Shown here: piece after piece, positions 124 to 54,373 of the stretch | Numbering within the stretch: position 1 is the stretch's first letter | How the letters are laid out: every line of letters starts with the position of its first letter | NCBI RefSeq assembly: GCF_007859855.1 | Contig: NZ_SJPK01000016.1 | Coordinates: 1-54,506 of the forward strand | Origin: Allorhodopirellula solitaria | Lineage (GTDB): Bacteria; Planctomycetota; Planctomycetia; Pirellulales; Pirellulaceae | Direction of reading: 5' to 3' | Length of the DNA stretch: 54,506 bases | Position numbers and translations under genes: made by a program | The notes under the pieces: generated by a model | Seen by the model: the letters and a program-made list of their open reading frames with translations, nothing else | Databases searched by the model: none | What the model was told of the DNA's origin: nothing

Positions 124-353
124 TATGCGGTCAGCGCAGCGCCACCTACGGTGGTTCGTTGGCCGTGGAACGTCGACCCCGAAGTGGGTCGCAGATTCTC
201 TCATGAACGTTCTTCAACCCCATTCGGGGTTGGTTCTTGCGTCTCGCGACGTATCCGGTGGTGTTCGCTTGCGCTCAAACCACCGGCTATTTACTTCAAC
301 GCCTTCGGCGTAGGGAACTTGTAGTGAATCAATAGCCCGCCATCGTTCACTAC
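124..353 (+). repeat. multi-hairpin intergenic repeat, long copy A
   Basis: This non-coding stretch is built of successive inverted repeats: CCAC/GTGG (142-154), CGACCC/GGGTCG (174-191), CAACCCC/GGGGTTG around an ATTC loop (215-232), CCGGTGGT/ACCACCGG (255-286), ACGCC/GGCGT around TTC (299-311) and GTAGTGAA/TTCACTAC (321-353). The first four reappear in the same order near 53846-54008, with conserved loops such as CGAAGT and ATTC. Positions 249-292 are nearly identical to 40098-40140 and to the complement of 49039-49082. The last arm overlaps the stop codon of the MnmD-like gene. It may be a structured RNA, a mobile palindromic element or a terminator-like spacer; the sequence does not decide this. 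Confidence 0.8.
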
Positions 354-7711: not shown

Positions 7712-9041
7712 AACCGCTGTCCCTGCGCCCAAGGCCAACGTCACCGCCACGACCGATGCGGCCCCGCTCAGCTCTCTCGAACTGGTCCTGTCGCTGGTCT
7801 CGCTGTTGATTCTGACGGCCTTCGTGACATCGCTGATCAAATGGGCGACACTCCTGCGTCACGGCGCCCGATTGTTCGGTGAGCGAGCCTTGGTTCCCGC
7901 CCGCCCGCGCGCTCGACCCTACTGGAACCCCGCCCTCTTTCTGTTCTTCTTCGGGGTGCTGATCATCGCCAGCATGATGCTCAACCGCTGGGCCAGCGAT
8001 GCCGGATGGATCCCCAAACCCACCGCATCGGCTGAAGCCGAGGTTGTCGCCGAGACAGCCCTGCCCGATGCGATCACTCCCGACGAAGTCATCCCCGATC
8101 CCGTCAGCCCGGTAACGATCGACCCACTGACCGACGCCGAGAATCCGCCGGCGACCGCGCCGACCTCGCCACCGGCTCAGGAGATATCGGTCCCGCATCT
8201 CTTTATCAGTTCAGCTGGAATGCTAGCGGCCACGATCGTCACGTTGTTGCTAGCGCAGACTTTCCGCCCGTCCCTGCCGACCCCATCGAGCGGGATCGAC
8301 CCGACCGTCGCCCACGAACGGCCACGCATCGGCTTAGTGCCCCGTCGAGGTGACCTATCGCTCGGTTTCCGTGCCGCGTGGTTGATCTTGCCGCCGACCA
8401 TGCTACTGATGGGATTGGTCTCGATCTTGCAAAAATACACGCACCCGGTGCTCGAGGCGCTCAAGCCAGCGGGACCGGATTCGGCTCCAGATCTGACGGT
8501 ATTTGCAGCCTTGTTCTTCACAACCGCAATCATCACGCCATTGGTAGAGGAGTTCTGGTTCCGCGGTCTCTTGCAAGGCGGCTTGCAACGACTCGCCGAC
8601 ATGGCGGTCGACTCGCAGAGGCAGTGGAACCGCCTCACCGCCAGCCGCTCGTCGAGCGACACGGAGTTTTCTCCTGACGCGTCGAACGATGTCGTCGATC
8701 ATCCCAATGCGTTGGCTACCGACGATCCCTACGCGTCACCCCGAGACTTGGCCCAAAATGAGTCAGTTGCGCAGAACCATTTGACCGCCCGTGAGCTCGA
8801 GCGAGATCAGGACACCCGTAGCGACTGGACGCCGACAGCGGTGTGGCCCATTTTGGTAACGAGCGTGATCTTTGCCGTCATGCACTGGGGCCAGGGACTC
8901 GCCCCGATCCCCTTGTTCTTCTTATCGCTGGGCCTCGGGTATTTGTACCGCCAAACCGGATCGCTGGTTCCCTCGATTGTGGTGCATTTCACTCTCAATG
9001 GATTCACGATGTGCGTGACCCTGCTGCAGATTCTACGTTGA
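7701..9041 (+). CDS. CPBP family intramembrane metalloprotease
   Basis: A multi-pass membrane protein of 446 residues from the CAAX-protease and bacteriocin-processing (Rce1-like) family. All catalytic motifs are visible: EExxxR at 283-288 (EEFWFR), the second-motif His395 in VIFAVMHWGQG, and His429/Asn433 in VHFTLNG near the C terminus. Two acidic loops (about residues 110-150 and 320-370) lie outside the conserved core and look disordered. ATG 7701 lies inside the pgsA end. The stop TGA overlaps the TTG start of uvrA in TTGA. Substrate unknown; the operon with pgsA hints at a membrane role but does not prove one. Confidence 0.85.
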   Translation: MQAETAVPAPKANVTATTDAAPLSSLELVLSLVSLLILTAFVTSLIKWATLLRHGARLFGERALVPARPRARPYWNPALFLFFFGVLIIASMMLNRWASDAGWIPKPTASAEAEVVAETALPDAITPDEVIPDPVSPVTIDPLTDAENPPATAPTSPPAQEISVPHLFISSAGMLAATIVTLLLAQTFRPSLPTPSSGIDPTVAHERPRIGLVPRRGDLSLGFRAAWLILPPTMLLMGLVSILQKYTHPVLEALKPAGPDSAPDLTVFAALFFTTAIITPLVEEFWFRGLLQGGLQRLADMAVDSQRQWNRLTASRSSSDTEFSPDASNDVVDHPNALATDDPYASPRDLAQNESVAQNHLTARELERDQDTRSDWTPTAVWPILVTSVIFAVMHWGQGLAPIPLFFLSLGLGYLYRQTGSLVPSIVVHFTLNGFTMCVTLLQILR

Positions 9042-11854
9042 CCGCACCGATACGCATTCACGGAGCTCGCGTTCATAACTTAAAGAACGTGAGCGTCGAT
9101 ATCCCTCGCAATCAGCTCACCGTGATCACGGGTGTCTCGGGCAGTGGCAAGAGTTCACTCGCGTTTGACACGCTCTTTGCCGAAGGACAGCGGCAATACA
9201 TCGACACGCTCTCCACCTACGCCCGGCAGTATCTCGACGCGATCCCGCGCCCCGACGTCGACCTGATCGAGGGCCTCGCCCCCACGCTGTCGATCGATCA
9301 AAAGAGCGGTTCGCAGTCAGCGCGCAGCACCGTGGCGACGGTCACTGAAATCTACGACTACCTGCGACTGCTCTTCGCACGGGTGGGGATACCGCATTGC
9401 ACCGAGTGCGGCAGTGCAGTCAGTACGCAGACCCCTGATGCAATCATCGAATCTCTTGGCGCATACCCACCACGCACGAAACTCACTCTGATGAGTCCCA
9501 TGGTTCGAGGTCGCAAGGGAAGACACACCGATGTGCTGGAGAAAATTGCCGCTCACGGCTTAGTCCGAGCGCGCGTCGATGGCGAAGTCTTTCTCCTCGA
9601 AGACGTCCCACCACTCGCCGTTCGCAAGAACCACACGATTGAAGCCGTGGTCGATCGCATCGTTGTCAAAGCAGGCATCGAAGCGCGCCTCGATGAATCC
9701 ACACGCTTGGCGATCCGGCTGTCCGGTGGTCTCTGTGCGGCGCTCGTCGAGACACCCGATGGCGATTCCCACTCGGAGTTATTCAGCACCACGATGGCCT
9801 GTGTTCAGTGCGGTGCGAGTATGGAAGAACTCGAACCGCGCACGTTCAGTTTTAACAGTCCCTACGGGGCCTGTCCTACTTGCGATGGATTGGGCGTCGT
9901 CGAGCAGTCGTCAGCGGACAATCGGACAGCAAGTAAACGCTCAGCGGGCAAACAAAAACCGGCCGCTCGAAAGTCTTCAAAGAAAACAGATCCCCAACTC
10001 ACGATCACCTGTCCAACATGCTTGGGTGGGCGTTTACGGCCCGAAGCGCTCGCGGTCTCCATCGCCGGAGAGTCGCTGCCCCACGTGGTTTCGATGCCGC
10101 TACTGCAGACTCAGGATTGGATGAAATCGATCACTGAGTCGCTATCGGAACTGCATCAGCGGGTCGCCGCACCGATTCAAGACGAGGTCGTTCGCCGCAT
10201 CGAGTTTCTTTGCCGGGTCGGAGTGGACTACCTCACCCTCGACCGATCGGCGGACACACTCAGCGGCGGCGAACTCCAACGAATCCGTCTGGCGAGTTGC
10301 ATCGGCAGCGGTCTGGTCAGTGTCTGCTACGTCCTCGATGAACCATCCATTGGACTGCACCCCGCCGATCACGACCGGTTGCTCGACGCGATCGGCGAGC
10401 TCAAGGATCAAGGCAATACGATTGTGATCGTCGAACATGACGAAGACACGATGCGGGCGGCCGACTATCTCATCGACATCGGCCCCGGCGCCGGCGTCCA
10501 TGGCGGATACATCGTCAGCCAGGGAACCCCCGACGAGGTCGCCAACGACCCCGCGAGTCCCACCGGCAGATACCTCGCAGGCAAAGAACCCATAGTCGCC
10601 CGACGGCTCCGCCCGTCGGAAAAAAACAACCAACAGCCCCACCCGCCGGAAGAAGCCATAGTCGACCGACGGCTCCGCCCGTCGGAAGTGGACAACCAAC
10701 AGCCCCACCCGCCGGAAGAATCCATAGTCGACCGACGGTTCCGCCCGTCGGAAGTGGACAACCAACAGCCCCACCCGCCGGAAGAAGCGATAGTCGACCG
10801 ACGGCTCCGCCCGTCGGAAAAGAACAACCAACAGCCCCGTCCGTCCACCAAGTCTTGGCTGACGCTGCGTGGGGCGAGTCTGCACAATCTCGACAACGTC
10901 ACACTGAAACTGCCGCTGGGCAATTTGATCGGCGTCAGTGGCGTGTCGGGCAGCGGCAAGAGTTCGCTCATCGTCGACACGTTGTACCCCGCCCTGGCAG
11001 CCAAACTCGGCCTCGTGGCCAAGCCACCGGGCAAGCATTCGCGATTGATCGGTGCTGAGAAGATCGACAAATTAATTCCGATCGACCAATCGCCGATCGG
11101 GCGGACGTCGCGGTCTTGTCCAGCGACCTACGCGGGCGTACTCGATCCCATCCGGAATGTTTTTGCCAGCACGCGAGCGGCCAAAACCCTCGGGTTCTCT
11201 GCCTCACGTTTCAGCTTCAACTCGCCCGCGGGCAGATGTGATCTCTGCAAAGGAAACGGATTCGAACGCATCGAGATGAACTTTCTCAGCGATCTTTTGA
11301 TCGAGTGCTCTCGGTGTGGCGGCAAACGCTTCAATCGTCAGACGCTGCAGGTGCGTTTCAAGGGAGCGACGATCGCGGATGTCTTGAACATGACCGTCGA
11401 AGCGGCGTTGGAGTTCTTTGAGAATGTGCCGAAAGTCAAAACGCTGCTCTCGTCACTCTTTGATGTCGGCTTGGGTTACGTCACCCTCGGACAATCGAGC
11501 ACAACACTGAGCGGTGGCGAAGCGCAACGGATCAAGCTGGCCACCGAACTGGCACGCCCTGGCACCGGCAGCACACTATATCTGCTCGACGAACCAACCA
11601 CGGGGCTGCACTTCAGCGACGTGCAGCGTCTGCTCACTGTCCTGGACCGACTCGTCGAGGCGGGCAACACGGTCGTCGTGATCGAGCACCACACCGACCT
11701 ACTGGCCGCCTGCGATTGGCTCGTCGACCTCGGCCCGCGCGGCGGCGAAGGCGGCGGCCGCATCATCGCCGCCGGACCGCCCAGCGACATCGCTGCCTGC
11801 CCCGACTCGCTAACAGGCGAGTTCTTGAGCAAAAAGCTAGCAGCTAAGAACTAA
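9038..11854 (+). CDS. uvrA: excinuclease ABC subunit A
   Basis: A 938-residue UvrA, the damage-recognition ATPase of nucleotide excision repair. It starts with TTG at 9038, overlapping the previous stop (TTGA). The first ABC half has GVSGSGKSS (Lys38), a zinc-binding CxxC pair (MACVQCGASM and GACPTCDGLG) and LSGGELQRIRLAS. The second half has a second GVSGSGKSS, a zinc motif (RCDLCKGNG and IECSRCGGKRFNRQTL) and LSGGEAQRIKLATE. Both halves carry the LDEP Walker B. Between the halves, residues 519-602 are a tandem repeat absent from ordinary UvrA. The gene is the last of the pgsA operon and its end overlaps hemL tail-to-tail by four bases. A second uvrA elsewhere in the genome cannot be excluded. 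Confidence 0.9.
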   Translation: MTAPIRIHGARVHNLKNVSVDIPRNQLTVITGVSGSGKSSLAFDTLFAEGQRQYIDTLSTYARQYLDAIPRPDVDLIEGLAPTLSIDQKSGSQSARSTVATVTEIYDYLRLLFARVGIPHCTECGSAVSTQTPDAIIESLGAYPPRTKLTLMSPMVRGRKGRHTDVLEKIAAHGLVRARVDGEVFLLEDVPPLAVRKNHTIEAVVDRIVVKAGIEARLDESTRLAIRLSGGLCAALVETPDGDSHSELFSTTMACVQCGASMEELEPRTFSFNSPYGACPTCDGLGVVEQSSADNRTASKRSAGKQKPAARKSSKKTDPQLTITCPTCLGGRLRPEALAVSIAGESLPHVVSMPLLQTQDWMKSITESLSELHQRVAAPIQDEVVRRIEFLCRVGVDYLTLDRSADTLSGGELQRIRLASCIGSGLVSVCYVLDEPSIGLHPADHDRLLDAIGELKDQGNTIVIVEHDEDTMRAADYLIDIGPGAGVHGGYIVSQGTPDEVANDPASPTGRYLAGKEPIVARRLRPSEKNNQQPHPPEEAIVDRRLRPSEVDNQQPHPPEESIVDRRFRPSEVDNQQPHPPEEAIVDRRLRPSEKNNQQPRPSTKSWLTLRGASLHNLDNVTLKLPLGNLIGVSGVSGSGKSSLIVDTLYPALAAKLGLVAKPPGKHSRLIGAEKIDKLIPIDQSPIGRTSRSCPATYAGVLDPIRNVFASTRAAKTLGFSASRFSFNSPAGRCDLCKGNGFERIEMNFLSDLLIECSRCGGKRFNRQTLQVRFKGATIADVLNMTVEAALEFFENVPKVKTLLSSLFDVGLGYVTLGQSSTTLSGGEAQRIKLATELARPGTGSTLYLLDEPTTGLHFSDVQRLLTVLDRLVEAGNTVVVIEHHTDLLAACDWLVDLGPRGGEGGGRIIAAGPPSDIAACPDSLTGEFLSKKLAAKN
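10592..10843 (+). repeat. 66-bp tandem repeat inside uvrA, from a palindromic element
   Basis: About 3.8 copies of a 66-bp unit begin at 10592, 10658, 10724 and 10790. The unit encodes 22 residues (IVDRRLRPSEVDNQQPHPPE plus two more) and keeps the uvrA frame. Each copy contains the inverted repeat CCGACGG/CCGTCGG with a six-base loop, for example at 10666-10685. Copies differ by only a few substitutions, so the expansion is recent. It joins the two ABC halves of UvrA. Confidence 0.95.
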
Positions 11855-25174: not shown

Positions 25175-25400
25175 CCAAGACGCGTCAGCGGCCGGGTGGG
25201 CGGCGTTACCCGGGGCCTTACGGCCAATGCCAACTACTTCCGACCGCGAAGCGGTCTTGGTAGCCCGACGCGTCAGCGAGGATCACTTGTTCGCCACGCA
25301 AAACACTGCATTTTCCTCGCTGACGCGTCGGGTTGCCATCGTGATGATGCCCCGAACGGGGGCAGAATCGATGGCCCTGGCCTGACGGCCCTCGGCTCAA
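25175..25400. repeat. multi-hairpin intergenic repeat of the GACGCGTCAGC type
   Basis: The core GACGCGTCAGC occurs at about 25177 and 25267 and inverted at 25321. The last two form a 19-bp perfect inverted repeat: TCCTCGCTGACGCGTCGGG at 25314-25332 matches the complement of 25264-25282, with 31 bases between. A further hairpin GACCGC/GCGGTC with a GAA loop lies at 25242-25256. Its sequence differs from the 124-353 family. No coding character is seen. Confidence 0.75.
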
Positions 25401-39307: not shown

Positions 39308-40045
39308 TTATCCCCGCAGGGCTTTCGCCAGCGGGCAGTGGGCCATGGCGTCGGGCGCCCCGCGACGGTACTTCTCGAGCAAGCGTCGCGATTGGGCGGC
39401 GAGTTGCCGGCGGACCTCTCTCCGCTCGCCTTTGACCCTCGCGATCGACATATCGTCGTAAGCGGTGGTCTGGTGACGCATCCACGCGATCACAGCGGAC
39501 TCCGCCCGCTGCTGGATCGGGATCCGCTGCGTTCGCGCCACCGTGCCGCTGCCAACGGGCGTGGCATGCTCCGTGACGGCTTGAGCGAGCCGTTCGGCGA
39601 TGCTGCCATACGATTCATCAAAGGCGAGAAACTCGACGACAGCCGCTTGGAAATCTTCCACGTACTCGCCCTGTTTCTCGTCGCGGCGGACCTTGGCGGC
39701 GGCTTTCGCCTTGGCGTACTGGGCTGTACTGCGGGTGGCCTCCATCGATGCCCGAGCCTGTTGAATTTGGGCCCCGTCGGCCCACAGGCCCTGCGAGAAT
39801 TCACGCCGCCCCTTTCGCTCCTTGACCGTCCAGGTCGGTCCGGCCGCTTTGACCCGCCGGGTCACGCCAGCATCGCCTGGAGGCAGCAACTCCCAAGTGT
39901 CCGGCACGGGCACGATGTCGCCCGAGGGCAACTTGACAGATCGATCCCTGCTGGCAGGACCGACCACCAAGGTCTGTTCGCAGAGAGGTTGGCTGGGGTC
40001 AGGATCCGGGTGACGAGACGTTTTTTTGGGTTTCGTTTTAGGCAT
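39308..40045 (-). CDS. DUF2293 domain protein
   Basis: A 245-residue soluble protein. After a Lys/Pro-rich start (MPKTKPKKTSRHPDPDPSQP) and a small beta segment (KLPSGDIVPVPDTWELLPPG), the DUF2293 domain fills the C-terminal 100 residues. Key blocks are AVTEHATPVGSGTVARTQRI, PIQQRAESAVIAWMRHQTTA, YDDMSIARVKGERREVRR and a final CPLAKAL. The function of DUF2293 is not known. ATG 40045 fits the family start; an extension to 40126 would run into the repeat copy. It is convergent with the isomerase gene (31 bases). Confidence 0.88.
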   Translation of the reverse strand: MPKTKPKKTSRHPDPDPSQPLCEQTLVVGPASRDRSVKLPSGDIVPVPDTWELLPPGDAGVTRRVKAAGPTWTVKERKGRREFSQGLWADGAQIQQARASMEATRSTAQYAKAKAAAKVRRDEKQGEYVEDFQAAVVEFLAFDESYGSIAERLAQAVTEHATPVGSGTVARTQRIPIQQRAESAVIAWMRHQTTAYDDMSIARVKGERREVRRQLAAQSRRLLEKYRRGAPDAMAHCPLAKALRG

Positions 40046-40097
40046 GGGCTGCGGGTTGGAGGTGCGGAGGCTTGGAGGTTCGGCGATTGGGTTTTGT

Positions 40098-40199
40098 CGT
40101 ATCCGGTGGTGTTCGCTTGCGCTCAAACCACCGGCTATTTTCTAAAACGCCTTCGGCGTGGGCGAAATCATGGGTAACTGATAGCTCGTCGCCTCGTCC
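40098..40199 (+). repeat. intergenic repeat, copy B (both short modules)
   Basis: The first module (40098-40140) is identical to 250-292: arms CCGGTGGT and ACCACCGG around a loop with CGC/GCG, then GGCTATTT. A hairpin ACGCC/GGCGT with a TTC loop follows. The element ends with GCTCGTCGCCTCGTCC (40184-40199), also found on the minus strand at 48949-48964 and 53781-53796. It lies upstream of DUF2293 and in the leader region of the giant surface-protein gene. Confidence 0.85.
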
Positions 40200-40699
40200 A
40201 AAGCGGTTCTGTCGTACACAAATTCAAGCATGGCGAATCAGGTTCGGGAAACAGCATCCCTTTAGCTCATGGCACGGCATTGCTGCCCCCCCCAAACAGG
40301 CAGGTTGTCGCGGTGCGAGGGAACCAAACAGTCACTCTCAGCGTCAAAACTGGCAATGTCGGCACAGAGGTCAGCTTATGAAAACCAATTAGTTGTGTCG
40401 GATAAACTCAGTCGATCGTCATCTTGGATTGTGCTCGATGGCGATCCTAGGAACGTTAATAACGTGTTTTCGGTCCACGCGGGACTCATCCGAGTGCTAG
40501 AGTTTTTTTGCTCGCACAACTGGACCTTCCCGGGGCGTCTGCGAAGACTGAGGCGAGTTTCCCGGTTGGCGAAAGCTGTCCGGCTGTACTGAAATACCTT
40601 GTTAATCCAACTATCGATCGTCGACTTTTCCGATATCTCCTGCATTTCCACACTGTGGTGGTTGCCGGATTCGAATCATCCTATTGAACGCGTTTATTG
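40200..40699. other. leader region of the giant surface-protein gene
   Basis: About 500 bases with no gene that can be supported. A 91-residue minus-strand frame (40376-40651) has no recognisable pattern. The promoter of the surface-protein gene must lie here, but no clear -35/-10 pair stands out. Confidence 0.45.
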
Positions 40700-43600
40700 A
40701 TGAATCTCGCTCAAAAACTACGCCAACGTCTCGCTCGCCTGATCGCTTTGGACGCCCGTGGTGGCGCCGCGAGAACCTCGGCCGATCGCGGACGGCTGCT
40801 GCTCGAGACGCTCGAGGCGAGGCAATTGATGGCGGGTGACGTCGGCATGTGGTTTACCGATCCGGCCCCCACGACGGCCGATGACGTGTCGGTCGTGACG
40901 GACACCTCGGCGAGCGATCGCGGCAGTTCTCAAATTGCGGCCGAAGGCGAAGCGCCAGTCGATCTCGTTGAGCTGGCCAAACATCTCGACCAGGAAGGGT
41001 TTGAATTCTATGGGGCGTACTGGTGTGCCGCCTGCACGCAGCAGAAAGACCTCTTCCAGGACGGCCAGGAATACCTGCCCTTCACCGATGTGACGCTCGA
41101 CAATGCCGAACAATCGCAAGATCCGCAGTACGCGGACCTGAATATTACCGAGTACCCGACGTGGGTCTTCCCCGATGGCACCCATCACAGCGGCGTGCAA
41201 TCGATTGAGTCGCTGATCGAAGCAAGTGACTACGTCAATCCGGCCGAAGCTCTCCCGACGTTCCAGCAGATCGGCCCGCAAACGGTTGCCATCGGCTCTC
41301 CCCTGCACATCCCCATCGACGCCTATGATGCCGATGGTAGTCCGCTGACGGTGACCGTGTCGGTGGAAGACCAAGCGATCTTGTCAGGGACCGTCCTGAG
41401 CGGGAATCGTTCACTGCGATTGGACATGGAAGGCTACGGCGACATGGTGTTCGAGTTATTCGAACAACGTGCTCCCGAAGCGACAGGCCGCATCGTCGAA
41501 TTGACTGAGGATGGTTTCTATGACGGAATCCTGTTCCACCGCGTCGTCGACGATTTTGTGATCCAAGCCGGCGACCCACAGGGCACTGGCACGGGCGGGT
41601 CGGATCTGGGCTCTTTCGACGATGAATTCCACCCTGACCTGCAGCACAACCGATCGGGCGTGCTGTCGTTCGCAAAGTCGTCCGACGATACAAATAATTC
41701 ACAGTTCTTCATTACCGAGGTCCCCACTCGGTTTTTGGACTATCAGCATTCCGTCTTCGGACAACTCGTCGAGGGTGACGACGTCCGCGAGGCGATCAGC
41801 GAAACCTACCTCGACGCCAACGACAAACCCGTCAATCCGGTCCGGATTGGTAACGCCACGATTTTCAATGACACCGAAAACAGTGTCGTGATGCTCAAAG
41901 CCCTCGGCGGTACTGGCACGACGAACGTGACCTTCACGGTCACCGACAGCGATGGCAATCAGCACCAAGAGGTCGTGGAGGTGACGGTTACCGAAGACCT
42001 GGACGCCAACGGCAACGAGATCAACAGCCAACCCTATTTGAAACCCATCGATGACCCGATCGTCTCCAGCGGAACTGGGCCAGCGACACTGCAGCTCGAG
42101 AGCGTTGACGTTGAGGGCGACCCAGTGAGCTATTTCGTCGGCGGCACGAGCTCGGATGATGCCACGGCCTCGGTCGATCCCGCAACTGGTCTGGTTACCG
42201 TGACTCCCGCGGCCGGTTTCCAGGGCAGCGTGGATGTCGGCGTGGGCGTCTTTGCCACGACCGGAGCTGGGGATGCTGCCGACACGCAGGTCGTCACGTT
42301 TACCTTCGATGATTCCGCGATCGCCGTGCCCACTTCCATTGACCTGCGAGCGAGCAGCGACTCAGGAAGCAGCAACACGGACAACATCACCAATCTCGGC
42401 TCGATGACGTTTGACGTCACCGGTGTGACCGATGGTGCAACGGTGCAGATCATTGATACCTCTGACAACACGGTCATCGGTGTGGGTACCGCTAGTGGCA
42501 GCACGATCTCCATCACCACCAACAACATCGCGGCCATCGGCCAGGGCACCTATACCCTGGCGGCGCGGCAGGTGGTCAGCGGAACCGCGGGCGAGGCGTC
42601 GGCACCGATTACACTGATCTACGACACCAGCTCACCGAGCTTCGACACCAGTGCGGTCACGACGACGGGCAACGTCAACACACCCTACCAAACCAACCTC
42701 GTCAGTTCCGAGGAAGGCAGCGGGGTCACCTACGCGTTGACGACCCGCCCCAGCGGCGCGACCATCGTCGCCGGCACCGGCGTGATCAACTGGACGCCGA
42801 CGGCCGCCCAAGTCGGAGCCAATGCGTTCACAGTCACCCTCACCGACCAGGCCGGCAATGTCGAGACGCAGTCCTTCAGCGTCAACGTCGCCGACGAACC
42901 GGTAGCGGGGATCCAGCTCGAAATTACCGACCTCGATGGCAACCCCGTCAGTTCGCTCGACGTCGGCGACCAGTTCTTGCTGAAAATGTACGGTACCGAC
43001 GAACGCGCTCGAGGCGAGCAGGGAGGCATCTATGCTGCCTACGCGGACATCGTGTTCGACGGCACACTGGTACGTGTCGTCCCCGGCACCTCGATCGATC
43101 ACGCGGTGCAGTTCGCCAACACGCCCTCCGGGACAATCAATACTGGATTGATCGACGAACTCGGTGGCGTCAACACAGGCACGACACCTACCAACGAGGA
43201 AAAATCGCTAATCGCCACGCTGCAGATGGAAACGCTCGCTGCCGGATCGGTCAATTTCGTGACCAATCCCGCCGATGGTTCCAATCGCGAAGTGCTGCTG
43301 TTCTTCAATAATGAGAACGTGCCGACCGAAGCTGTCAACTATCGCAGTGCGTCCTTAGCCGTGGGGCAGGGCTTCACCGCCAACCCGGATAGCTTTACCG
43401 TCGCTGAGGACAGCGGTGCGACGGAACTCGACGTGCTCGCCAACGACGAGATCGTCTCGGGATCCGGATCGCTGTCGGTCGTCAGTGTGACGCAGCCGAG
43501 CAGCGGCGGCAGCGTATCGCTCGACAACGGCATCGTCAGCTTCACACCCGCCCCCGATTTCGTGGGCACTGCCGAGTTCACCTATTTGGTCGCGGGGCCC

Positions 43601-48928: not shown

Positions 48929-48948
48929 ATCGCGAATCATCCCGTAAC

Positions 48949-49082
48949 GGACGAGGCGACGAGCCCATGCGACATCCGTAGTAAACCAGACGAGCAGTTA
49001 ATTACCCACAAGCCTACCTCCGCCGACGGCGGCCTGGAAAAATAGCCGGTGGCCTGAACGCAAGCGAACACCACCGGATACG
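48949..49082 (-). repeat. intergenic repeat, copy C
   Basis: Read on the minus strand this copy has CGTATCCGGTGGTGTTCGCT, a loop with CGC/GCG, CCACCGG and GGCTATTT, like copies A and B. It is followed by a hairpin with arms CCGCC and GGCGG (loop GTC), then TTGTGGGTAAT and finally GCTCGTCGCCTCGTCC (48949-48964). About 35 extra bases separate the last two. It fills the gap between two convergent genes. Confidence 0.85.
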
Positions 49083-52186: not shown

Positions 52187-53746
52187 GTGTCCACATCATT
52201 GCCAAGCTATCTGAAAATCCACTGCGCTGACCACGAAACCGATCGCGTAGCGGAATCGCAAGTCGAGTCCGAAGCGAAATGGGAGCAGACCGAACTGGCC
52301 GTCCAGGCGACCTCGGTTCTCATCAACGCAGCGGCAAAAAAAGGCAGCGACCAGGTCGACCAAGTGCTCGCCGACGCGTTGCTCGCCACTGACGCGACAG
52401 CCGCGGCCGTCTACCTGCTCGATGACGCGACCGAACAGCTCAACACCCGGTTCGTCTTCGGCATGCTACCGGCACACCGACTCGGCACATCGCGTCCACT
52501 GCGTGGCGCTCGCGGTGATCTCGAAGCGATGGTGCAAGGAACCTTCACGATGCAGGACCTGCCTGCCAATCGAATGGACCAGCACTCCATTCCGGAGCCC
52601 TTCGCCTCGGCGATATGCCTTTGTTTGAACGGCACTGAATTGCCGATCGGCACCCTGTGGCTCTATAGCAACGCCCCGCATGCCTTCGACGAAAAGGCAA
52701 CCGCCGCCGCTCGGTTGGCTGCCACCGACATCTGCCACACCCTCGTTTCACTCCATCGCCTGTCGTCCCCTGCCAATGGCTCGTCTGCCCCTGCATCCGC
52801 TCGGGGACGCGACCTGATTGATGAAGAGAACGCGGCACCCGATTTTGATGCTGATCGTTTCGTCGAAGCCATGGAACCACTCCCCGGACACACACCTCCG
52901 GCCATCGACGACGCCCCTTCCGCAATGCACGAGTGGGAGAAACAAATCTCCGATTGGCAATGCGATACTTTGCCACTGGGAACCCGGTTGGCCCGGGACT
53001 GGATGGTGGATGGGATGGTAGAGTCCCCGTTGGCGGTCGCCCAAAGCTGGCACCACTGGGATGTGCTTCCCGATGGTATTCTGGCGATCGCGATGTGCCA
53101 ATTCGGACACGCGTGGGCCCCCCAAGGTGATCTGGGCGATACACTCGATGCGACCGTAGCCCGCGCCGCACTCCAGGCTCATCTGGGCTATCGACATACG
53201 CCGCAGGAAGCATTGATGCGAACCTTGCACAGTCTCCTGCAGGTACGAGATGCCGCCATTGATGAAAGCGGACGGCCCAGCCTATCGCTGCTTTATGCCC
53301 ACGTGGATCCCCAATCGGGACGGGCCGCGATCTCGTCGATTGGCCAGTGGTCGAGCCTCATTGCCTCCCCTCAAGGCTATCGCTCGCTCAATCTCGATCG
53401 CGCTGCCACGATCGCGGCCGAGGAGATCCCCGGCGAGTTGCCGATCATGAGTCATGAGACAACCCTGCTCGACGGGGAAGCCCTGTTGGTGACGAGCGCC
53501 CAGTGGATGGGGATCGCGTCCGAAGCACCGCCGCTCACACCACGCCTCGATGAAACCATCCGCCGCGACGGCATCGACCACGATAGCGAATCGGTACGCC
53601 ATCAGATTGGAGCGTCGCTGCAGAAAGCCATGATGGAGGGCGAACGCAGTCCACTCGCAGCCCTCCGCCGACACACCGCTTCAATCCCCCTGAACCGAGA
53701 ACGCGCCGCACTGGCCCTGCTGCACCAAGCGAATCCAATATCGTAG
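52187..53746 (+). CDS. GAF-domain protein with a degenerate SpoIIE/PP2C-like domain
   Basis: A 519-residue soluble protein starting with GTG at 52187. Residues about 35-190 look like a GAF sensor domain (LADALLATDATAAAVYLLDD, SAICLCLNGTELPIGTLWLY, FDEKATAAARLAATDI). A disordered linker follows. From about 265 the pattern suggests a SpoIIE-type phosphatase (SWHHWDVLPDGILAIAMCQF, SLSLLYAHVDPQSGRAAISS, IGQWSSLI, GEALLVTSAQWM). The usual metal-binding GDVSGHG is replaced by CQFGHAWA, so catalysis is doubtful. The stop lies inside the start of repeat copy D. The second-domain call is moderate. Confidence 0.7.
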   Translation: MSTSLPSYLKIHCADHETDRVAESQVESEAKWEQTELAVQATSVLINAAAKKGSDQVDQVLADALLATDATAAAVYLLDDATEQLNTRFVFGMLPAHRLGTSRPLRGARGDLEAMVQGTFTMQDLPANRMDQHSIPEPFASAICLCLNGTELPIGTLWLYSNAPHAFDEKATAAARLAATDICHTLVSLHRLSSPANGSSAPASARGRDLIDEENAAPDFDADRFVEAMEPLPGHTPPAIDDAPSAMHEWEKQISDWQCDTLPLGTRLARDWMVDGMVESPLAVAQSWHHWDVLPDGILAIAMCQFGHAWAPQGDLGDTLDATVARAALQAHLGYRHTPQEALMRTLHSLLQVRDAAIDESGRPSLSLLYAHVDPQSGRAAISSIGQWSSLIASPQGYRSLNLDRAATIAAEEIPGELPIMSHETTLLDGEALLVTSAQWMGIASEAPPLTPRLDETIRRDGIDHDSESVRHQIGASLQKAMMEGERSPLAALRRHTASIPLNRERAALALLHQANPIS

Positions 53747-54010
53747 TGGACGAGGCGACGAGTCCTCCCAGCGCCGTACTGGACGAGGCGACGAGCTGTT
53801 GATTACCCACAAGTATCCCGAAAGGGATGATAGAAAATAGCCGTATGGTAAGCGCAGCGCCACCTACGGTTGTTCGTTGAAGATGGAGCGTCGACCCCGA
53901 AGTGGGTCGCAGACCTTGTCGTCAATGATCTTCCACCCCATTCGGGGTTGGCACGCGTATTTCGCGGAGGTTCCGGTGGTGTTCGCTTGCGCTCGACCAC
54001 CTGCTATTTT
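53744..54010 (-). repeat. composite intergenic repeat, copy D
   Basis: GGACGAGGCGACGAG occurs at 53748-53762 and 53781-53796, the first touching the stop codon of the preceding gene. On the minus strand the second is preceded by TTGTGGGTAATCAACA and a hairpin ATCCC/GGGAT with a four-base loop (53815-53828). From 53846 to 54008 the plus strand repeats the order of copy A: GCGCAGCGCCACCTACGG, then CGACCC/GGGTCG at 53892-53909, CCCC/GGGG around ATTC at 53936-53947, then GGTGGTGTTCGCTTGCGCTC and GCTATTT. Two units in opposite orientation are thus joined. Confidence 0.85.
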
Positions 54011-54373
54011 CGGTTCATCCGACGGAAGCGTGCGCAGACCACAGCGGAAGGTTTTTTGAGTACTGTCATATCCAGAACGAAAATTTGCAGTGCGCGCGTA
54101 CGCTCAGCGGCACCACCAATAGGGTAGCTTTTTCGACACTCAAAGTCCACTGTTTGTCGGCCAGCCAGCACGGCTCGGTTAGCTTTGGTGGTTCAGTCTC
54201 GCCACCCTGGTAGATATCCGAAGCTCTGAGAGCCCCACACTGTCTCATCCGGCGTTTGAACCGCTAACAGAGCATCTCACTCTAGCACGGGCTTGCTCAG
54301 CAGAGCTACGCTCCACCGATACCCTCGGCATGCGACGACGTTGTTAGTGTGCTTGGCAGCACGACAATTCAGC
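54011..54373. other. non-coding right flank
   Basis: About 360 bases with no gene that can be supported and no repeat shared with the rest of the window. Confidence 0.4.

Follow-up and report, generated by a model that had tools for sequence, protein, structure and literature searches.

The short hairpin that recurs in four copies of a repeat in Allorhodopirellula solitaria is likely to be the outer hairpin of a two-hairpin end, belonging to a non-autonomous, REPIN/MITE-like mobile element that would move as single-stranded DNA. Its mover is probably a TnpA transposase of the type described as subclass 1.2. The original prediction had taken the arms of these copies, different from one another and yet complementary, as direct covariation evidence for a selected nucleic-acid structure. 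The sequence comparisons presented here bear out the structure, which selection has maintained among related loci, though on other grounds than the one given.

In the window, that is, the whole stretch of 54,506 nucleotides analysed, a check of the sequence confirmed the outer hairpin in all four copies, A to D, with loops of 3 or 4 nt. On the plus strand lie those of copy A (ACGCC TTC GGCGT, 299-311) and copy B (ACGCC TTC GGCGT, 40147-40159), and on the minus strand those of copy C (CCGCC GTC GGCGG, 49020-49032) and copy D (ATCCC TTTC GGGAT, 53815-53828), the last forming a left end when read on the plus strand. Copy B (40098..40199, plus strand) represents the right end of the element on its own. 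Its large hairpin (40103..40134; arms CCGGTGG, 40103-40109, and CCACCGG, 40128-40134) carries at its foot the tag CTA (40135..40137; TAG on the other strand), followed by a conserved C(T) at 40142..40143, which is a putative cleavage site, by the outer hairpin and by an inverted terminal extension, AGCTCGTCGCCTCGTCC (40183..40199), all on the plus strand. Copy A (142..311, plus strand) is an element without its left outer part, with middle hairpins at 175-190 and 216-231, a large hairpin at 255-286 and a tag at 287-289. Copy C (48949..49077, minus strand) is a right end with a large hairpin at 49046-49077, a tag at 49043-49045 and an extension at 48949-48965. Copy D (53748..53979), a left end read on the plus strand, comprises an extension (53748-53797), a tag and large hairpin from 53838, a middle hairpin (53893-53908) and the arm of the right large hairpin from 53973, and its right outer part is replaced by other sequence. 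Copy D had been counted as a copy of the same kind as A to C, which does not hold, since it is a left end, on the opposite strand and beside a different large hairpin. The conserved GGCTATTT is indeed common to all four copies, and occurs five times in the window against 0.34 expected from shuffles. The other parts said to be conserved are so in some copies: TTGTGGGTAA is exact in C and D (49002 and 53803), while B has CATGGGTAAC and A is without such a motif, and the GCTCGTC part is present in B, C and D but missing from A.

The repeat is an interspersed element with a core of about 270 nt and a left and a right end, the order of its parts being drawn from 42 full or near-full copies in 40 stretches fetched from the same genome. 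The left half consists of an inverted terminal part ending ATTACCCACAAG, the outer hairpin ATCCC/GGGAT, AATAG and a large hairpin, CCGTAGG../..CCTACGG; the middle holds the hairpins GACCCCGAAGTGGGTC and AACCCCATTCGGGGTT; and the right half runs from a large hairpin, CCGGTGG../..CCACCGG, through CTATTTTCT to the outer hairpin ACGCC/GGCGT and an inverted terminal part starting CTTGTGGGTAAT. In full elements, about 9 nt separate the outer hairpin from the tag on both sides (TAG on the left, CTA on the right). The inverted extensions are variable, reaching up to about 65 nt in copies of this genome, and truncation or a mosaic make-up is seen in some copies. Allowing one mismatch, CGGCTATTTTCT has 263 sites in the genome (6.8 Mb) and its reversed pattern 21. 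When one full element was folded as single-stranded DNA, it gave a single long hairpin with the two outer hairpins protruding from it (z -3.40; 0 of 100 shuffles as stable), and copy B folded alone gives a z of -2.33, with 4 of 200 shuffles as stable.

Other repeats were seen beside the element and elsewhere in the window. A second module, GTAGTGGACGAGGCGACGAG, and near copies of it are appended to element ends (window 53743-53797 and 48944-48965), with two consecutive copies at copy D. The module seems to be a tagged repeat in its own right and, in copies from this genome, is lengthened into an inverted repeat, about 65 nt long, with GCTTAGCAACGC at its end. A CATCCGACGGAAGCGTGCGC-like module replaces or abuts element ends in the window (about 54000-54060) and at loci L001, L021, L155, L165 and L166, suggestive of recombination between the element and a different repeat family. 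Within the long open frame 8843-11854, a 66-nt unit is present in three tandem copies (10584-10843), and a 25-nt inverted repeat, 92% complementary and with its halves 31 nt apart, lies outside the element family at 25258-25338. A search of the window against Rfam gave 0 matches at gathering score, and a search for intrinsic terminators (hairpin plus T run) around copy B gave 0 in 39900-40700, the shuffles giving 0.8.

Pairing of the outer hairpin within this genome was assessed in 107 ends with a recognisable large hairpin, obtained from 143 anchors in the fetched loci. All five pairs are formed in 92 of the 107 ends, against a mean of 44.9 and a maximum of 56 when the downstream parts were dealt out among the copies in 500 shuffles. 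The arms fall into few classes: ACGCC in 58 ends, 56 of them fully paired; ATC-type in 39, of which 36 are fully paired and 35 of these are ATCCC/GGGAT; and other arms in 10. The large arm CCACCGG stands with ACGCC 49 times, with other arms 3 times and never with the ATC type, and CCTACGG stands with the ATC type 18 times, with another arm once and never with ACGCC. Arm type therefore tracks the side of the element, so that the difference between copies A and B and copy D is that between the right and the left end of one element, and only copy C (CCGCC/GGCGG) differs from A and B on the same side. With arm type set by side and almost no compensatory change, the argument from covariation between the copies fails. 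The type of mismatch was tried as a discriminator between RNA and DNA and rejected, there being just 6 single mismatches (G-T 1, A-C 2, other 3). Nothing found here points to RNA in particular, and the association with an HUH/Y1 transposase would suggest single-stranded DNA.

There are 16 Y1_Tnp matches in the genome. One gene (C2:422008-422451) is intact and encodes an HUH/Y1 protein of 147 aa, its frame open and its HUH, Y and Q residues kept; it sits inside a repeat unit, and after it the 234-bp unit recurs 9.6 times in tandem. The other 15 loci showed no tagged stem with an outer hairpin within 500 nt. In the tandem array, the outer hairpins are ATCCC/GGGAT on the left and ACCGC/GCGGT on the right. 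The right arms of the interspersed copies, on which this TnpA is predicted to act, are ACGCC and thus differ from those of the array (ACCGC), a caution for the preferred explanation. The protein contains the motifs DHVH, WQ and YIANQRAHH, scores 68.2 bits against the IS200 model NF033573 (cut-off 55), matches transposase structures of the ISHp608/ISDra2 type, and scores 23.1 bits with the REP_Tyr_transpos model, below its cut-off of 80. It is probably a member of subclass 1.2, as judged by motifs (DH[IV]H, WQ, Y---Q--HH, about 148 aa) rather than by a published HMM. Two more relatives of TnpA occur in the same genome, L207 (C8:108340, with one TAA inside) and L217 (C7:181084); they have hairpin arrays of their own, whose arms are GTCCC/GGGAC and GCCCC/GGGGC and which lack the TAG tag, an observation that counts against a tagged two-hairpin element moved by TnpA.

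Support for a selected structure whose arms change while the pairing is kept comes from TnpA-linked loci of other genera and phyla. Of at least 579 loci in named genomes, 80 were kept, by title 28 Planctomycetota, 21 Verrucomicrobiota, 19 Bacteroidota and 12 others, with Cyanobacteria absent; a fixed gene end (3438) was used for most of them, true ends lying up to about 20 nt off. Hairpins cover 12.9% of the sequence within 400 nt of TnpA, compared with 3.3% after shuffling and 4.0% further away, and coverage exceeds all of 20 shuffles at 57 of the 80 loci. At 59 of 76 loci the two flanks are mutual inverted repeats that exceed the 95% level of the controls (152 mispaired flanks), and at 36 they exceed the highest control. 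After stems of at least 7 bp, CTA was found 117 times against 8.8 expected, the next-ranked triplet (among those without N) being enriched 1.6-fold. Tagged ends numbered 140, in 62 of the 80 loci, and 108 of them have an outer hairpin, with 41 arm sequences between them (shuffled mean 10.5, maximum 18). Near TnpA (77 kb, gene excluded) there are 133 tagged ends, 107 with an outer hairpin, against 25 and 6 far from it (128 kb). Tag and outer hairpin occur together at 23 of 28 loci in Planctomycetota, 17 of 21 in Verrucomicrobiota and 12 of 12 in the other groups, but at only 2 of 19 in Bacteroidota, which counts against the preferred explanation. The exact end sequences, scanned as a pattern in the named genomes, gave no match. 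Similarly shaped ends that differ in sequence, lying beside this little-studied gene in several other bacterial groups, suggest a family of hairpin-marked mobile DNA.

Closer relatives give a similar picture. DNA relatives of the element are present in 11 of 13 genomes of the genus (own genome included), with about 70% identity over long matches, and TnpA homologs were found in all 13 genomes of the genus and in 85 of the 149 from the family. The arms of the large hairpin change in step (CCGGTGG, CCGGCGG, CCGGCAG, CCGTAGG, CCGCAGG, CCACAGG, CCCCAGG and others), and among 77 ends, taken from 33 loci of 17 genomes, 67 have the outer 5-bp hairpin (shuffles: mean 2.0, maximum 7), 20 of these loci having been found by likeness to the element itself and 13 by protein. 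The tag is AATAG or ATAG in the own genome; among relatives TAG is kept, and some have GTAG. Among 57 TnpA loci taken, ATCCC hairpins lie within 1.5 kb of all 13 whose protein is at least 51% identical to the partner (13 genomes, 7 genera), and of just 2 of the 44 less similar ones. One of the 13 close genes has an internal stop (L224) and another is without the second His of HUH (L222). Hairpin arrays with other arms occur in several other lineages (18 loci read). The end pattern, searched in 59 relatives besides the own genome, had a sole match, one site in G039 that looks like chance. Three equal-scoring TnpA matches (L193, L201 and L212) stand in tandem about 1 kb apart in another genome (G002:C1:6437933-6440367), so the gene-bearing unit itself can apparently be tandemly amplified.

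The position of the outer hairpin relative to the tag was compared in one tagged end per locus, chosen blind to the outer hairpin, with sequences unweighted for relatedness. In the named loci, the best of 22 centres tried lies 18 nt past the first tag base, and a hairpin with this centre gives a pairing of 0.78 in 55 of the 80, against at most 0.47 at other centres and a mean of 0.52 (maximum 0.58) when the 3' arms were shuffled. The same 18-nt centre in the genus and family loci gives 0.83 in 47 of 57, with neighbouring centres at most 0.35 and a shuffled mean of 0.53 (maximum 0.60); these figures use located TnpA genes, 8 of the 57 having been off their assumed place (6 through contig edges or short hits, 2 through a neighbouring tandem copy that scored first). 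All five pairs are formed at 35 of the 55 named loci, with 16 arm sequences, and at 34 of the 47 genus and family loci, with 13. Position 7 is a conserved C at 42 of the 55 named loci and at 36 of the 47 from genus and family. In ends chosen for having an outer hairpin, it begins 8 or 9 nt past the tag in 82 of 94. Copy B has the same geometry, with CTA at 40135, C at 40142 and the hairpin at 40147-40159. Between lineages, the outer hairpin holds its register while its arms change and the pairing is kept.

The TnpA_REP of Escherichia coli has been described as recognising single-stranded REP via GTAG and a hairpin and cutting at CT (PMC8266576), and REP doublets as acting like mobile units, with compensatory changes (PMC3116915). 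By analogy, the TnpA considered here should act on tagged hairpins and cut at C(T). It would bind them on single-stranded DNA, cut close to this conserved C(T), which lies between the tag and the outer hairpin, and move or copy the element, while the outer hairpin would present or limit the cleavage site. In the syntenic region of the genome G007, both flanks of copy B are there and the element is missing, which is consistent with insertion of copy B; loss in G007 is also possible. The exact insertion ends could not be defined from G007, and the comparison gave no transposition, junction or target duplication; in the case of copy C, the two flanks match different contigs of G007. The TnpA of G007 is 84% identical, and there are 8 matches to its own unit in that genome, so the large element population appears to be specific to its own genome.

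An element that was once mobile could now be an inert relic, or be copied by another enzyme, the pairing within the genome reflecting recent descent only. There is almost no variation inside each arm class in this genome, many copies are truncated or mosaic and copy B is a solo right end, as such a relic would have it; with the open frame and kept catalytic residues of TnpA, and with arms that change between lineages while still pairing, we nevertheless consider it unlikely. REPs have been described as frequently following genes, with an RNA-level action suggested for some of them (PMC3733652). The position of copies A, C and D beside the 3' ends of ORFs would suit a repeated cis-acting RNA element such as a terminator or mRNA stabiliser. 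Such a role is nonetheless very improbable, given the lack of Rfam matches in the window and of a terminator-like site in 39900-40700, the two ORFs flanking copy B, which, as read, both have it on their upstream side, and the two-sided, inverted design around a transposase gene. Slightly less credible again is the view that the element is a DDE-transposase MITE, with long terminal inverted repeats as its defining feature and the hairpins as by-products. The inverted extensions of up to about 65 nt in this genome would agree with it, but they are missing from the tandem array and from most of the relatives' copies shown, in which the tagged hairpins remain.

A two-hairpin element moved by TnpA as single-stranded DNA, the reading that we prefer, resembles several known systems. 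IS200/IS605 elements are defined by subterminal hairpins without terminal inverted repeats. Like them (subclass 1.1), the present system has a short HUH/Y1 TnpA and hairpins at its ends; in contrast, its ends are inverted repeats of several hairpins, as in the flanks of the 59 of 76 loci above, and a single gene goes with numerous repeats. Their CT-type cleavage and guide sequences, as described (PMC8266576), provide the model for the mechanism proposed. PATEs (palindrome-associated transposable elements) are likewise reported as ends-only IS200/IS605 derivatives moved in trans (PMC7290912), whereas the ends here are two hairpins with a tag between them, in large numbers. In class 3 TnpA_Y1 and the TIRYT 'TIRtrons', too, a Y1 gene is accompanied by repeated hairpins of atypical form or by long inverted repeats at the termini, and class 3 includes Planctomycetes (PMC6006769, PMC3733652); class 3 differs from the element by the foot CnGA and the motif Y----Q, and the TIRYTs are placed near the RAYT-like subclass 2.1. 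REP families of the GTAG/CGTC kind, with published consensus sequences, are also known from Rhodopirellula baltica.

With the TnpA_Y1 of subclass 1.2 the partner shares a length of about 148 aa, DH[IV]H, WQ, Y---Q--HH and a low copy number (PMC6006769). That survey gives 'no' for REP in this subclass, and generally no IS200-type end structures; the flanking repeats are clear here in Planctomycetota and Verrucomicrobiota. Since the surveyed members were mostly from Cyanobacteria and Bacteroidetes (PMC6006769), 'no REP' may be right there. In the texts available to our literature searches, no publication tying subclass 1.2 to repeats was found. The present results provide a likely DNA substrate, delimited closely enough for natural oligonucleotides to be ordered, for transposase-like proteins surveyed as having neither REPs nor insertion-sequence properties. 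They would also account for many intergenic hairpin repeats of planctomycetes and their relatives, and would give populations of repeats a second means, next to the RAYTs, of spreading through the genomes of bacteria.

The REP/REPIN (BIME)-RAYT systems, as described, are alike in having an inverted pair of tagged hairpins, many intergenic copies, compensatory changes and a tandem cluster beside one Y1 transposase gene (PMC3116915, PMC6006769, PMC3733652). They are unlike in that the tag is ATAG here and GT[AG]G in RAYT systems, that the partner has Y---Q--HH (YIANQRAHH) instead of Y---NP, and that a second, outer hairpin stands past the tag in a fixed register. We tentatively propose that, in Planctomycetota, Verrucomicrobiota and some other phyla, each subclass-1.2-like TnpA might keep a private population of two-hairpin repeats, with a TAG-tagged large hairpin, an outer hairpin in fixed register and the cleavage site between them; these could form a separate single-strand mobile class between IS200/IS605 and REPIN-RAYT, with arms co-evolving with the enzyme. 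By analogy, the element system would work like REPIN-RAYT, yet it departs from it in two defining features, the GT[AG]G tag and the Y---NP partner.
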